This document shows positions 16,472 through 30,108 of a stretch of 64,000 nt of DNA, piece by piece. Both the position numbers and the translations under genes were made by a program. This stretch comes from Bryoerythrophyllum caledonicum. Its lineage: Eukaryota > Streptophyta > Bryopsida > Pottiales > Pottiaceae. The stretch spans positions 19,022,784-19,086,783 of the forward strand of contig OZ020518.1 in assembly GCA_963971425.1 (NCBI GenBank). Direction: 5' to 3'. Under the pieces are notes generated by a model. That model did not search any database, was not told where the DNA came from, and was given only the letters and a program-made list of their open reading frames with translations. Within the stretch, counting starts at the first letter, position 1. Every line of letters begins with the position of its first letter.

Positions 16472-17015
16472 GAAGGGATCTTGGGTGCTTATTACCAAGC
16501 AGAGATGAGAGAGGAGTAGCTCCGTGAAACCTGGTGAGGAGAGGTTTAGGTGTTAGGCAGAAACGAAGCACAAAGCATTGACAGAAGCTGGATCTCAGTG
16601 CAAATCCCGTTGTGCACCTCGTTTTGTTGCTAGAAGGTGTTTCTAGGATGAAGAGTGTTGGCAGGGATTACAAGACCTTGATCTACTGTCACAAGTTTGA
16701 AAGGGCTGCAAAGGATCTAGCACTAGTATGGGAGAGTAGATCTGAAGTGGGGCTCTGTGTTGGCCCAGATCTAGCTCTAGGTCCTGCACTACCCACGTCA
16801 AACATGTACAAGTAGTTCCAGATCGTGATACCATACCACAACTAGAAACATCACACCATTCACCTCCTCAACCAGAACACAAGCACACACATGAAGATCA
16901 ATTCCAGCCCTCAATGTGCACAAGACCAACACCAAGATACAAGATCAGCCCACGAGATTCAACAAACCCAAGGACCAGATAAGTCTCATATGTGTATTCT
17001 GTACTTAGGAAAATT
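16472..17015 (+). other. LINE-B 5' end and proximal leader
   Basis: About 540 bases before the tandem repeats. The start matches the 5' end of LINE-A. Such leaders normally carry an internal promoter; none is recognisable by eye. Confidence 0.6.
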
Positions 17016-18437
17016 TCAATACTTCTTATGCAAACTTGATAGTAAGATGCTAGGGACTGCTGATGCTGGGTTATACGTGATTAACCCCTATTACAAGGAG
17101 CCTCAAAGCTACCATAGATCGAGAAGAGCAGCACTAGTACGCTAGATACAAAGTAAGGAGCAGCAGTACCCGAGGAAGACCACCAAGCCACCTGCAAAAG
17201 AAATGCACCGACGTCAACGCTCTGCGACCACCAAAACCATCAACAAGACCAAGACAAACAACAACAACGACGCAACTCCCATCATGGCCAAGGTACGTTC
17301 CCAAAACTCTAATCTAACCACTTTCTGCTTGCTGTTACATATCATCAGGAAAAATCACGAACTCTCAAGACGGACAGCCAACAGAAGAGGAATACACAGA
17401 CAAGACAAACATGAGGCGAATAAAAACTCAACATCGACACACATGAACCTACCGACATCAAAAATGAAGGAAGAACTTATCCGCAGATCCCAATACCGCC
17501 TCTGCACACTTCGTGGTAAGGTCCCAAGGACTGCTGATGTTGTGGTATGCATGACTAACCCCTATAACAAGGAGCCACAAAGCTGCCATAGGTCGAGAGG
17601 AACAACACTAGTACGCCAGGTGCAAAGCAGGGAGCAGCAGTACCCGCAGAAAGCCACCAAGTCACCTGCGACAGAAACGCACCGACGTCAACGCTCTGCA
17701 ATCACTGAAACCATCGCCAAACCCAAGACAAACAGCAACAACGATGCAACTCCCATCATGACCAAGGTACGTTTCCTAAACTCTAATCTAACCATTTTTT
17801 GCTTGATGTTACATATCATCAGGAAAAACCACGAACTCTCAAGACGGGCAGCCAACAGCAGAAGAATATCCAGACATGACAAACAGATGGCGAACAAAAA
17901 CTCAACATCGACACACAAGATCTTACCAAAATCAGGAATGAAAGAAGAACAGATCCGCAGATCCCAGTACTGCTTCTGCAAACTTAATGGTAAGGTCCTA
18001 ATGACCGCTGATGTTGTGTTATGCATGACTAACCACTATAACAAAGAGCCACAAAGCTACCACAGATCGAGAAGTGCAGCACTAGTACACCAGGTACAAA
18101 GCAGCGAGCAACAGTACCCGAGGAAGACCACCAAGTCACCTACAAAAGAAATGCACCAATGTCAACGTCCTGCAACCACCAAAACCATCGCCAAACCCAA
18201 GACAAACAACAACAACGACGCAACTCCCATCATGGCCAAGGTACGTTTCCTAAACACTAATCTAACCATTTTCTGCATGTTGCTACTTATCATCAGGAAA
18301 AATCAAGAACTCTCAAGATGGGCAGCCTACAGTATAGAAATATACAAACAAGACAAACAGGAGGCAAACAAAAACTCATCACCGAATTACGTATACCTGC
18401 CGCAATCAGGATTAGAGGAAAAACAGATCCGAAGACT
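17016..18437 (+). repeat. Three 474-bp tandem units in the LINE-B leader
   Basis: Units start near 17016, 17490 and 17964; the marker C(T/C)GCTGATG recurs at 17057, 17531 and 18005. Because 474 is divisible by three, a single frame (17203-18963, 586 codons) stays open through all copies; its product is basic and Gln/Lys/Asn-rich with no recognisable domain, so I do not call it a gene. Each unit holds an intron-like 56-base module (17293-17348, 17767-17822, 18241-18296): GTACGT, then a CTAATCTAAC-type branch sequence, then CAG. Confidence 0.9.
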
Positions 18438-27700: not shown

Positions 27701-29790
27701 ACTATACATTACCCAACCCTATCTTAGACTACCTTATTACATCTTTGAATATAACACATTCATTCTTCTCATCCCCCGTTACATGCTCCACAAAAATCTC
27801 AAAATACTACTCTCCATTCGAACGGGATCAGATTTTTGGATCTCTTGGAAAAGCTTTTGATTATAGGTAGAGCGGAATAGGCCTTGCACACCCTCACAAC
27901 AAAGAAGAAACCCAACAAGCAATACATTGGGCACGCCTAGCGGCAAACAATAACCCTGACCGCAACATCACCATTATCATCACTCCTGACACTCATTGGT
28001 ACCACAACTCTAATCCACACTCAGGCCCATTCCCGGACTCACACATCATAGTACTATTTGAAGCTGACACTATAACTTACAAAGAACCCACTATACCGCC
28101 GCATATACAAACACCCCGCCTCGAACCAGCAACCCTACGTATCCTATGTATACATCACCAAACTCAAGAAATTGGTAATCTGGAAAACCTCACTCATCTC
28201 ACTCTGATAGCAAAAAATCTAAACATTAACAAAGTATACACCGCAACCGCCTCTCCCACACCCATTCTAACCCGTGTAAACCGCAACAAAAAATGGTCTG
28301 AAACCCCCCACACAAACATCACCGCAGCACCAATTACCGAACTAAGCCTCCCCCTCTCCTACTACCAAATTAATAAAGACCTTAAATTTGACCCCAACTT
28401 TAGTTACTACACTGACGGCTCCTTTAAAGAACCAACGGAAGTAAGCCCGGGACACTGGCACCGTGAAAAAGCCGGTTATGGGATATACAATTCAACCAAA
28501 CAAATTAAAACAGGCAAAAGACTACATGGACTCCAAAATATTTTAAGAGCCGAAATGATGGCTATACATAAAACCCTTAAAATAATCACAACTAAATACC
28601 CAAACGAACCGGCTCACATTTTTACAGACTGTGTAAATATACTATACCTCCTTAATACACACATTAAACACCCTACTTTACACAACAGTCACCCGGACAA
28701 AACTATCCTTACATCTATGGTTGAAATGCTCCAAAACCGTACACAGATTACTACACTCCACAAAGTCCGAGCCCATGCTAATATAGACGGTAATGAACAA
28801 GCTGACAAACTCGCAAAGGAAGGAAGAGAAAAATCCCACAAGAATGCCGAACACCCATACGAACACGCCCATGCCACCCCATATTACTTTCATAGATATG
28901 AATGGCCCTCCATGGGAGAAACTCCCGATAAAGGCCCCATACGATTCTTAGACAAATACCTTAAAAAACATGATCTTATAAATAACCTAGAAAAACTTAC
29001 AGAAAACTTCCCCAATATTGATAAATGGACTGGCAACCCACACATTCACAACGCACTGTCCAATAATTTTTGGAAAAACCCCTTTATAACGGACCCACAA
29101 ATCACATGCCTAATTAAATTCCGCACGGGACAATACATGGGTAATGCCCGCAAACAACTCTTTTTTGGAATAGATAGATTTCCTACAATTACATGTCCAA
29201 TTTGCAACTCCACGGACCCAGATACATGGCTACATGTCTTACTCAAGTGCCAAAACCCCCATATACACTCACTAATTGTCAAAAGACATAACAAAGTCGT
29301 ATGGGCTATTCGCAAACTACTTATATCATCAACCAAATCCCGGTGTTTCATTCTTATGAATGCCGGAACCTTTAATGACAACCCACAAGAAAATACGGTC
29401 CCTCCTTGGCTGTTACCCTGCACCTGTCATACTCAAAGATGCCACTGCAATGCAAGATTCAAACCGGATCTATTATGTGTTAGAGGACTTTCATACAAAG
29501 ACCCCCCACCAAACCACATAGACCCTAATCTCACCATCCAATTTATTGAATTCACATATTGCAATGATAGATTCTCTCCAGACACCATTTCAAATAAAAC
29601 AAACAAATACCAACCACTACTTGACAATATTCATGCACTAGGATGGAAAGTAGACCCCATCATTGTCATCACCGCGGGTGCCAGAGCCACCACCTACATC
29701 CCCTCAATGACAACTCTTGAAGAAACCTTTAAAATCCCCATCACTTCAATCAAAACCACATTTTCGAATATTAACACTATTGCAATCTAA
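24751..29790 (+). pseudogene. LINE-B ORF2b: RT, RNase H, CCHC, RLE-like domain
   Basis: One frame of 1,680 codons with a single internal TAG (27868-27870, after SLGKAFDYR). RT: NKAPGPDHIPNSIL, LPNHRPIALANTIYKL, EGFRAERSTTRQLQ, ILYIDFKNAFGSIDH, RGTIQGDTLSPYLFI and the catalytic AAYADDLAA near 25888. RNase H follows near 28402 (YYTDGSFK, LRAEMMAIHKTL, IFTDCVNILYLL, VRAHANIDGNEQADKLA). CCHC is CPICNSTDPDTWLHVLLKC. The RLE-like part spans about 29455-29700: KPDLLCV, IEFTYCNDR, KTNKYQPL, GARATTYIPS. All motifs are kept in LINE-A. Relative to LINE-A the frame stops about 32 codons early (after NTIAI). Apart from these two stops it is open, so the copy is young. Confidence 0.9.
24764..24770 (+). other. 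A7 run at the APE/RT frame transition
   Basis: The upstream frame reads GCA AAA AAA TGC CAA TAA; the RT frame resumes at GCC AAT AAA, one base later (+1). LINE-A has GCAAAAAAACGCCAA at the equivalent place (about 30862-30876, minus strand) with the same +1 offset. It may be a programmed shift, slippage on the A run, or an inherited one-base insertion; six A residues would leave one frame. Confidence 0.55.
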
Positions 29791-30108
29791 CATGCTATGT
29801 GGATACTCCTACATAAACGTAAACTTGAAAACAAACAACCCCTTCCGGACGCCTTAAACCCCCCTCCATAGATCTACAATTCCATTTTTTGCACTTCACC
29901 GTACTTACCCTCCCTCTTTTAAGACTCTCTGGGACCTTGGGTCCTTTGGTATCGGTTACTTGTTACTGGGTACATAGTGTCCACCCTCGAAAGGGGGAAG
30001 TAGTTCCATACTACTAACCCATGCCCGGTGGGCATGGACTTAGTGGTGGAATGAACGGACACTTTACTCACGCCGGCCCCCTTTGGGAGCCGGCGTTCTT
30101 CTTCTTCT
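29791..30108 (+). other. LINE-B 3' UTR, hairpin and (TTC)n tail
   Basis: The 3' UTR shares blocks with LINE-A, for example CATAGTGTC(C/T)ACCCTCGA and GAACGGACACTTTACTCACG (GAACAGACACTTTATTCACG in LINE-A). It ends with a hairpin (30071-30095, CGCCGGCCCCC / GGGAGCCGGCG, one mismatch) and TTC repeats (30096-30108). Hairpin arms differ in sequence from LINE-A while pairing is largely kept, suggesting selection on structure. Confidence 0.8.

Follow-up and report, generated by a model that had tools for sequence, protein, structure and literature searches.

The window analysed here, a stretch of 64,000 nucleotides on contig C6 of the 437-Mb genome of the moss Bryoerythrophyllum caledonicum, contains a 13,637-bp non-LTR (long terminal repeat) retrotransposon, or long interspersed nuclear element (LINE), which is probably a member of a Dualen/RandI-like, dual-endonuclease lineage that has multiplied in this moss. 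The element has defined limits and a giant first open reading frame (ORF1); its second frame (ORF2) encodes an apurinic/apyrimidinic-type endonuclease (APE), a reverse transcriptase (RT), a PCIF1-like domain, RNase H, a CCHC zinc motif and a block resembling a restriction-like endonuclease (RLE). A 2A (StopGo) motif stands between the two frames, reached by an open −1 frame, and the genome holds very many relatives that bear the marks of recent spread.

An earlier note, made from the letters of the window, had already described one element with exact 12-base duplications, the motif order APE, RT (YADD), RNase H, CCHC and KPD...IEF...KYQPL...GARATT, and a land-plant host. All three descriptions hold: the coordinates were exact, the motifs are present in Pfam matches and alignment, and the host belongs to the mosses. 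This placement of the host draws on a LEAFY DNA-binding exon of the genome, rbcL having been ambiguous: the exon matches PDB 4bhk (FLORICAULA/LEAFY homolog 1, from Physcomitrella) at E 4.6e-71, compared with 8.9e-51 for the second-best match and 9e-50 for 2vy1 (PROTEIN LEAFY, from Arabidopsis). The older element in the flanks, the damage to the window copy, the great length of ORF1, the −1 frame, the 2A motif and the PCIF1-like domain go beyond the account in the note.

Domains, limits and relatives of the element

ORF2 is broken in the window copy (Table 1) and unbroken on two other chromosomes, at L034 (2,344 amino acids) and L036 (2,351 amino acids), labels of this form denoting other loci compared with the window copy. 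The Pfam order APE, RT, PCIF1_WW, RNase H is identical in L034 and L036, and both loci, like an older, related copy within the window, have an ORF1 homologue upstream of ORF2. Judged by profile matches, the APE upstream of the RT is weak but real, with Exo_endo_phos_2 (PF14529) above its cut-off in L034 and just below it in L036, and Exo_endo_phos (PF03372) matching in the window as well. RNase H (PF00075) reaches an E-value of 1.5e-12 in the unbroken L034.

To place the RT, we built a tree of ten rows that holds the moss RTs, two R2s, L079, human L1 and three other LINEs, with no Dualen row. The moss RTs group with the two R2s and L079 against L1 and the three other LINEs (split 98/96), and they fall outside the RLE references, which group together (89/91). 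Among the four rows labelled as APE-type, an APE is known for L1 (from general knowledge) and L077a (from Pfam) only; L077b and L078 show an RT alone in Pfam, their N-termini being missing or running into masked sequence. This place midway between the RLE and APE groups is presumably the position described for Dualen. An RT position between RLE- and APE-type LINEs is used for Dualen in the accessible part of PMC4640811. The RT phylogeny that the earlier note had proposed thus sets the element outside human L1 and beside RLE-type LINEs, in a tree that includes R2 and L1 and lacks Dualen.

Some of these references came from a search of genome contigs, which gave three contigs; we take them to be contaminants of eukaryotic origin, and they served as references for RT and RLE. 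L079 (CAMWTP010000162.1), filed under a Lachnospiraceae metagenome-assembled genome, is apparently a whole RLE-type LINE and probably eukaryotic contamination. No relatives were found among viral contigs, searched with the ORF of the older copy and with the RT alignment.

The second candidate nuclease is the C-terminal block. CCHC, KPD, IEFT, K..KYQPL and GARATT are identical in both window copies, L034 and L036; the distant L076 keeps KPD but reads IEFA, KYQLL and GARATS, and the last Cys of its CCHC is missing. The order KPD, EFT, K..KY..L after a CCHC is common to the moss block and L079, which we take as RLE-type because of its layout (an N-terminal C2H2 finger, an RT and a C-terminal CCHC), and in 400,000 shuffles of each C-terminus the KPD-EF-KY..L pattern arose once for L079 and five times for the moss element. 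With ratios of nonsynonymous to synonymous divergence (dN/dS) of 0.057–0.066 (L034 or L036 against the older copy), CCHC and RLE-like block together are under stronger constraint than the other two ORF2 domains measured, RNase H standing at 0.09–0.12; these values are rough, since dS is 1.2–2.0. From motif order and purifying selection, the block is likely, though not proven, to be an RLE.

Between RT and RNase H lies the PCIF1-like domain (PF12237), which scores 34.6–43.5 bits against a cut-off of 31.1 in four copies (both window copies, L034 and L036), reaches E 3.3e-11 in the older window copy, and is over the cut-off at all 150 scored genome places, from 2,614 candidates. Against PCIF1 in the PDB (6irx, 6irv) the older copy gives a colinear but weak match (E 0.013). 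PCIF1/CAPAM is a cap-specific adenosine N6-methyltransferase whose catalytic motif is NPPF. The moss domain shares with it the FGS(L/R)G segment and its surroundings, retaining FGSLGKAFD-type residues, and differs in being embedded in a retrotransposon ORF and in its reading at NPPF: of 11 usable rows, 9 have HPH(N/T/S), L073 has DPH and L074 has PPH, a misframed first part of one window row being set aside. Its between-family dN/dS is 0.08–0.10 (dS 1.8–1.9, hence rough), and the domain is therefore maintained. With the catalytic motif lost, it would most likely be a module that binds RNA 5' ends or caps, and our guess is that it acts in 5'-end or cap recognition. A PCIF1-derived domain in a retrotransposon polyprotein would tie RNA-cap recognition to retrotransposition.

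The limits of the element are set by a 12-mer, TGTTTGAATTTG, that occurs in the window at the two ends of the insert and nowhere else. With the insert and one of the two 12-mers deleted, the RT frame of the older element becomes continuous (...FRAERSTARQIQTLIAALEDARF...), and because joining the flanks with one 12-mer restores this frame, 16472–30108 is a single insertion. Both flanks belong to that older, related element on the minus strand, visible as ORFs at 12110–14695, 15284–15853, 30064–32789 and 33995–35263, with a 2A motif just upstream of the ATG at 32789. Two further copies have matching ends, a 13-base string, TTATTTAGCGCTC, in the copy on C10 (L034/L035) and a string of 9–11 bases in that on C4 (L042/L005); the three copies span about 13.4–13.6 kb (two computed from locus coordinates). 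The 5' untranslated region is, in parts only, 96% identical to L042, 86% to L043 and 76% to L035. At the 3' end, where the comparison could detect loci in plus orientation only (18 of 30), the (TTC)n tail is present at 16 of the 18, L013 carrying a T-rich variant and L009 ending earlier. The 3' flanks differ among the 18 loci viewed, which indicates dispersed rather than site-specific insertion. The window copy itself is damaged, with ORF1-frame stops at 17143, 18961 and 19879 and the ORF2 lesions given in Table 1.

Relatives abound in the genome. Candidate numbers are first-look counts rather than copy numbers, and only the best candidates were scored: the ORF2 C-terminus of the window family was found in 101 of 101 scored copies at 93–100% identity (from 9,766 candidates), that of the older family in 136 of 136 (from 9,094), and ORF1 in 82 of 82 at 78–100% (from 3,708). 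Among the 82 ORF1 and 101 ORF2 matches there are 17 same-strand ORF1–ORF2 pairs 6.0–7.0 kb apart and a single opposite-strand pair separated by 17 kb; the two frames belong together. At 42 of the 150 scored PCIF1-domain places the score is the same, 33 of these 42 having exactly 3,087 open codons, and 15 of the 136 places of the older family have an open frame of exactly 2,815 codons, from which we take several families to have spread recently.

Nucleotide comparison of loci with the window copy (the 14 longest matches per locus, with ORF1 rechecked) gave, among the matches listed, 95–96% identity for L036 in the covered ORF1 stretch and 89% in ORF2, and for L034 93% in ORF2 with only two short stretches of the ORF1 core, at 73–76%. 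Exchange at the (CAA)n tract between the frames would be a likely explanation of such ORF1–ORF2 mosaics. Between L034/L035 and L036/L037 the ORF1 and ORF2 histories differ, as if swapped at that tract.

Table 1. Positions in the window of the element, its parts and the older relative that flanks it
Feature	Position	Strand	Basis or remark
Full LINE copy, 13,637 bp	16472..30108	+	12-bp target-site duplication, empty-site reading frame
Target-site duplication, left copy, TGTTTGAATTTG	16460..16471	.	12-mer match
Target-site duplication, right copy	30109..30120	.	12-mer match
5' untranslated region, ~419 bp	16472..16890	+	ATG at 16891; partly conserved in other families
ORF1 frame, 1,746 codons	16891..22131	+	3 internal stops vs 93 and 97 in other frames
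Three tandem 474-bp units (158 codons, in frame), ORF1 N-terminal extension	17017..18435	+	
Conserved ORF1 core (522 aa), without Pfam match	20563..22128	+	82/82 scored genome copies
GTCAAAC at ORF1 stop, candidate −1 recoding site	22122..22128	+	conserved context
Small hairpin TAGCGT-CAAACA-ACGCTA directly 3' of ORF1 stop	22132..22149	+	
Linker, open in −1 frame of ORF1 only	22132..22787	+	
(CAA)n microsatellite, 164 units, within linker	22257..22744	+	
2A/StopGo motif KLLIILCGDIETNPG/P	22788..22835	+	
ORF2	22833..29790	+	frame break near 24770, in-frame stops 27868 and 29788; unbroken in L034, L036
APE-type endonuclease	23496..24236	+	PF14529 1.2e-5, PF03372 3.3e-4
Reverse transcriptase (YADD)	25351..26142	+	PF00078 6.5e-28
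PCIF1-like domain, NPPF -> HPHN (end approximate)	27619..27980	+	PF12237 1.3e-8
RNase H	28399..28834	+	PF00075 8.4e-7 on fragment from 28555
CCHC zinc motif CPIC-x9-H-x4-C	29194..29250	+	alignment
RLE-like block (KPD, IEFT, K..KYQPL, GARATT)	29461..29787	+	order as in L079
3' hairpin (GCCGGC..GCCGGC) and (TTC)n tail	30060..30108	+	3'-end comparison
Older relative, 3' half (RT part, PCIF1-like, RNase H, CCHC, RLE-like)	12110..16471	-	ORFs, Pfam
Older relative, 5' half (ORF1 33995–35263, linker, 2A, APE region, RT start)	30121..35284	-	

The ORF1–ORF2 junction and the giant ORF1

The context of the ORF1 stop reads GTCAAAC-UAA in most copies, GTTAAAC-UAA in L034 and GCCAAAC in the older window copy, and the stop itself is UAA-UAG in most copies. 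The 6-bp hairpin behind it is kept, with G-U changes, in most of 26 copies; it is absent from L034 and the older copy and disturbed in L044. Downstream, ORF2 opens with the 2A motif, whose core (DIETNPGP or DVETNPGP) is present in 25 of the 27 copies examined and was not found in L052 and L058 within the 1.7 kb read; in all 25 motif-bearing copies an ATG directly follows NPGP. The motif stands in the −1 frame of ORF1 in 22 of the 25, and in 21 of these 22 the −1 frame is stop-free from the ORF1 stop to the 2A (in L061, whose ORF1 stop is displaced, the open stretch measures just 41 nt). The linker set includes 20 copies picked from the 82 ORF1 matches for lacking an internal stop, and the shuffles, which used 20 rows (without L044, L052, L058, L059, L061, L066 and the older window copy), describe rather than test this openness. 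The −1 frame is open in nine linkers that differ clearly from one another, with a peptide like IVYxYT recurring among them, and the repeat tract translates into poly-Gln/His in L034 and into poly-Asn in some of the copies.

Past the ORF1 stop, almost every copy shown has recurring palindromic TAGTATATATATACTA-like stretches (for example window 22155–22175 and 22220–22252), which specify IVYxYT when read in the −1 frame and might fold as well.

From this arrangement we infer that ORF2 is expressed by −1 recoding at the ORF1 stop followed by StopGo. Ribosomes would complete ORF1 and mostly terminate there; some would slip back one base at (G)YYAAAC-UAA and continue in the −1 frame through the (CAA)n-rich linker; at the 2A the ORF1–linker product would be released, and ORF2p would then be made as a separate protein. 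Several observations weigh against this route: GTCAAAC differs from the textbook slippery heptamer (X XXY YYZ), three of the 25 motif-bearing copies (L044, L059, L066) carry the 2A in another frame with stops, 13 stops interrupt the −1 frame of the older window copy, the L034 linker is open in the +1 frame too, and an ATG lies just past the motif.

Because of that ATG, ORF2 could also start independently, by reinitiation or by internal entry on the (CAA)n tract, leaving the 2A and the −1 frame as relics. This is the chief rival, and we regard it as somewhat unlikely. (CAA)n is an unstructured, ribosome-friendly leader, and the presence of the ATG in every motif-bearing copy, the double stop of ORF1 and the length of the linker would all suit such a start. 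Were the ATG the start, however, nothing would maintain the 2A core or hold the −1 frame open, yet the core is kept in 25 of 27 copies and the frame in 21 of 22, and the IVYxYT peptide recurs among the linkers.

Odon in 2013 and Heras in 2006 are said to have described 2A/StopGo in APE-type LINEs of animals and trypanosomes. The moss motif shares with these a D(V/I)ExNPGP core at the start of an RT-bearing protein, and differs in lying in the −1 frame after a separate ORF1, and in a plant. PMC12846837, in its accessible part, gives the 2A core as (D/G/C/N)(V/I)ExNPGP and states that plant viruses offer no evidence of natural StopGo use. Recoding in series with StopGo, if true of the moss element, would be a natural use of StopGo in a plant genome.

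The ORF1 apparent in the window is merely the C-terminal third of a longer frame. In L042, L043 and L044, which were selected for having long frames, this frame is open over 1,746, 1,604 and 1,529 codons with no stop, against 72–93 stops in the other frames; counted from the first ATG the lengths are 1,746, 1,555 and 1,472 codons, and 35 of the 82 ORF1 copies lie inside open frames of at least 1,000 codons. The final ~540 residues are conserved (ORF1 of the older copy, 33998–35263, is 32% identical to the core), while upstream the between-family identity is roughly 15–35% in most 100-column blocks, near 50% for L042 against L043 and up to 85% for L042 against L037. For the N-terminus dN/dS is 0.57 and 0.64 in two pairs with L037, other pairs being saturated or including the core (0.31–0.35). 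The core has no Pfam match, and scans of the L042 and L043 ORF1s were likewise without a match upstream of it. ORF1 is thus a giant frame whose N-terminus changes fast and yet stays free of stops.

One might suppose instead that the sequence upstream of the core is an untranslated 5' leader, stop-free for some other reason. Between-family protein identity there approaches the level of forced alignment, and nothing in ORF1 matches Pfam, as such a leader would have it; but the three copies without a stop over 1,529–1,746 codons (chosen, as said, for long frames), the 35 copies with at least 1,000 open codons and a tandem unit of 474 bp, a multiple of three, all speak for translation, and we consider the leader unlikely.

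Placement among LINEs

A number of results weigh against a Dualen/RandI-like dual-endonuclease element, or against parts of it. The APE matches of the window copy lie just below the Pfam cut-offs. No peptidase was found in Pfam scans of ORF2 (L034, L036) or ORF1 (L042, L043). The RT tree holds no Dualen sequence. For the C-terminus, PDB phmmer and profile searches were not significant and did not find R2, hhalign of the moss block against L079 gave a probability of 0.3, BLASTP of the same pair gave E 0.64, a hidden Markov model of the moss block scored L079 below the best of 2,000 shuffled controls, and an AlphaFold model of the 861-aa older ORF, built on a three-row alignment, was uninformative (mean predicted local distance difference score, pLDDT, 33; predicted template-modelling score, pTM, 0.21). 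The profile and structure comparisons that the earlier note had proposed for this block therefore gave nothing significant. Its claim of APE and RLE in one LINE is supported in part, by the APE profile, the RLE motif order and the purifying selection, while profile, BLAST and structure leave the RLE fold unconfirmed.

These null comparisons are what one would expect if the C-terminal block were a structural or nucleic-acid-binding tail with a chance resemblance to an RLE, the APE doing all the cutting; dispersed insertion and target-site duplications of about 9–13 bp would also suit APE-type integration. We find this quite improbable, in that the motif order after the CCHC matches L079 and is rare in shuffles, the block with its CCHC is the most constrained of the domains measured, and the RT branches with RLE-type rather than APE-type elements. 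With two endonucleases, ORF2p would nick DNA through the APE, the RLE or both, and copy its RNA through target-primed reverse transcription; the new insertion would carry a (TTC)n tail at its 3' end and be flanked by short target-site duplications, and RNase H would remove the RNA.

The idea of a common plant L1 that owes its odd appearance to nested insertions can be set aside: plant genomes are rich in L1 and nesting is real in the window, but unbroken copies on two other chromosomes have the same domain order, human L1, the one L1 in the tree, falls apart from the moss RTs, and the tail is (TTC)n, not poly(A). We rejected a plain L1 on RT and tail, chance nesting on the domain order of unbroken copies elsewhere, and a site-specific R2 on the presence of an APE and the differing 3' flanks of 18 loci.

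Plant L1 elements have two ORFs and carry APE, RT and RNase H in ORF2. The moss element resembles them in these respects (the L1 side being general knowledge) and departs from them in its RT, which is not with human L1, its lack of poly(A), its RLE-like block, its 2A and its PCIF1-like domain. With R2/NeSL/R4-type RLE LINEs it shares RT similarity (the best PDB matches are R2) and, through L079, the order CCHC then KPD..E..K..KY..L, whereas it has an APE, RNase H and ORF1, inserts at dispersed sites, and shows no C2H2 finger in Pfam scans of ORF2 (L034, L036).

Dualen/RandI non-LTR retrotransposons were reportedly described by Kojima and Fujiwara in 2005. Dualen carries a cysteine protease, and since no peptidase was found we file the moss element as Dualen/RandI-like, not as Dualen. 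In both, a single ORF combines APE, RT and RNase H with an RLE-like C-terminus; to the extent that partial sources describe Dualen/RandI, the two also share an RT between the RLE and APE groups and a short 3' microsatellite tail. The moss element stands apart by its host, its 13.6 kb, its giant ORF1, its PCIF1-like domain, its 2A with −1 linker and the absence of a detected protease, a separation from algal Dualen that is drawn from descriptions and not from compared sequences. In their accessible parts, PMC4640811 and PMC5753468 list Dualen/RandI as a clade, PMC3747384 gives RandI families with (ATT)n or (CTATTT)n tails (Table 3) and, in its plant tables, RandI in green algae only, PMC8226300 records Dualen in Chlamydomonas genomes, and a 2025 paper (PMC12747079) reports LINE/Dualen as expanded in cryptophytes except Guillardia theta. 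The earlier note had treated Dualen/RandI as a green-algal exception, which is too narrow, because the cryptophyte annotation in the available portion of PMC12747079 places the group beyond green algae. We found no report of a Dualen/RandI LINE in a moss in the open-licence literature, a scope that leaves Repbase entries outside.

As a tentative and more speculative extension, which we hold to be possible but doubtful, mosses may host a distinct branch of dual-endonuclease LINEs that express ORF2 through a −1 shift and a 2A in series, possess one of the longest LINE ORF1s, with an N-terminus that is changeable but never stops, and use a captured PCIF1 domain to sense the capped 5' end of their own RNA, aiding full-length 13-kb copies. 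Dual-endonuclease LINEs are thought, according to the accessible part of PMC4640811, to record a swap of LINE nucleases, and unbroken, recently amplified moss copies would give a tractable system for asking which nuclease makes which cut.

Other features of the window and the assembly

Elsewhere in the window, two repeats of ~2.55 kb (50230–52784 and 58617–61169) are 99.8% identical and contain 185-bp tandem repeats, with a gag/protease ORF on the minus strand between them (52919–57124); together they look like a young LTR element of Ty3 type whose LTRs contain the tandem repeats. Pieces of a hAT-type transposase (hAT dimerisation region, DUF659) occupy 61242–63886, and an AACCCTT/AACCCTTT array at 10535–10764 is plant-telomere-like and chromosome-internal. 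The neighbouring gene that the earlier note had called GIL1-type gives a Pfam match, though one below threshold. In the assembly, the plastid-like contigs C590, C821 and C894 carry at least two different rbcL sequences (L031 and L032 were read), perhaps from a second green organism or a nuclear copy.

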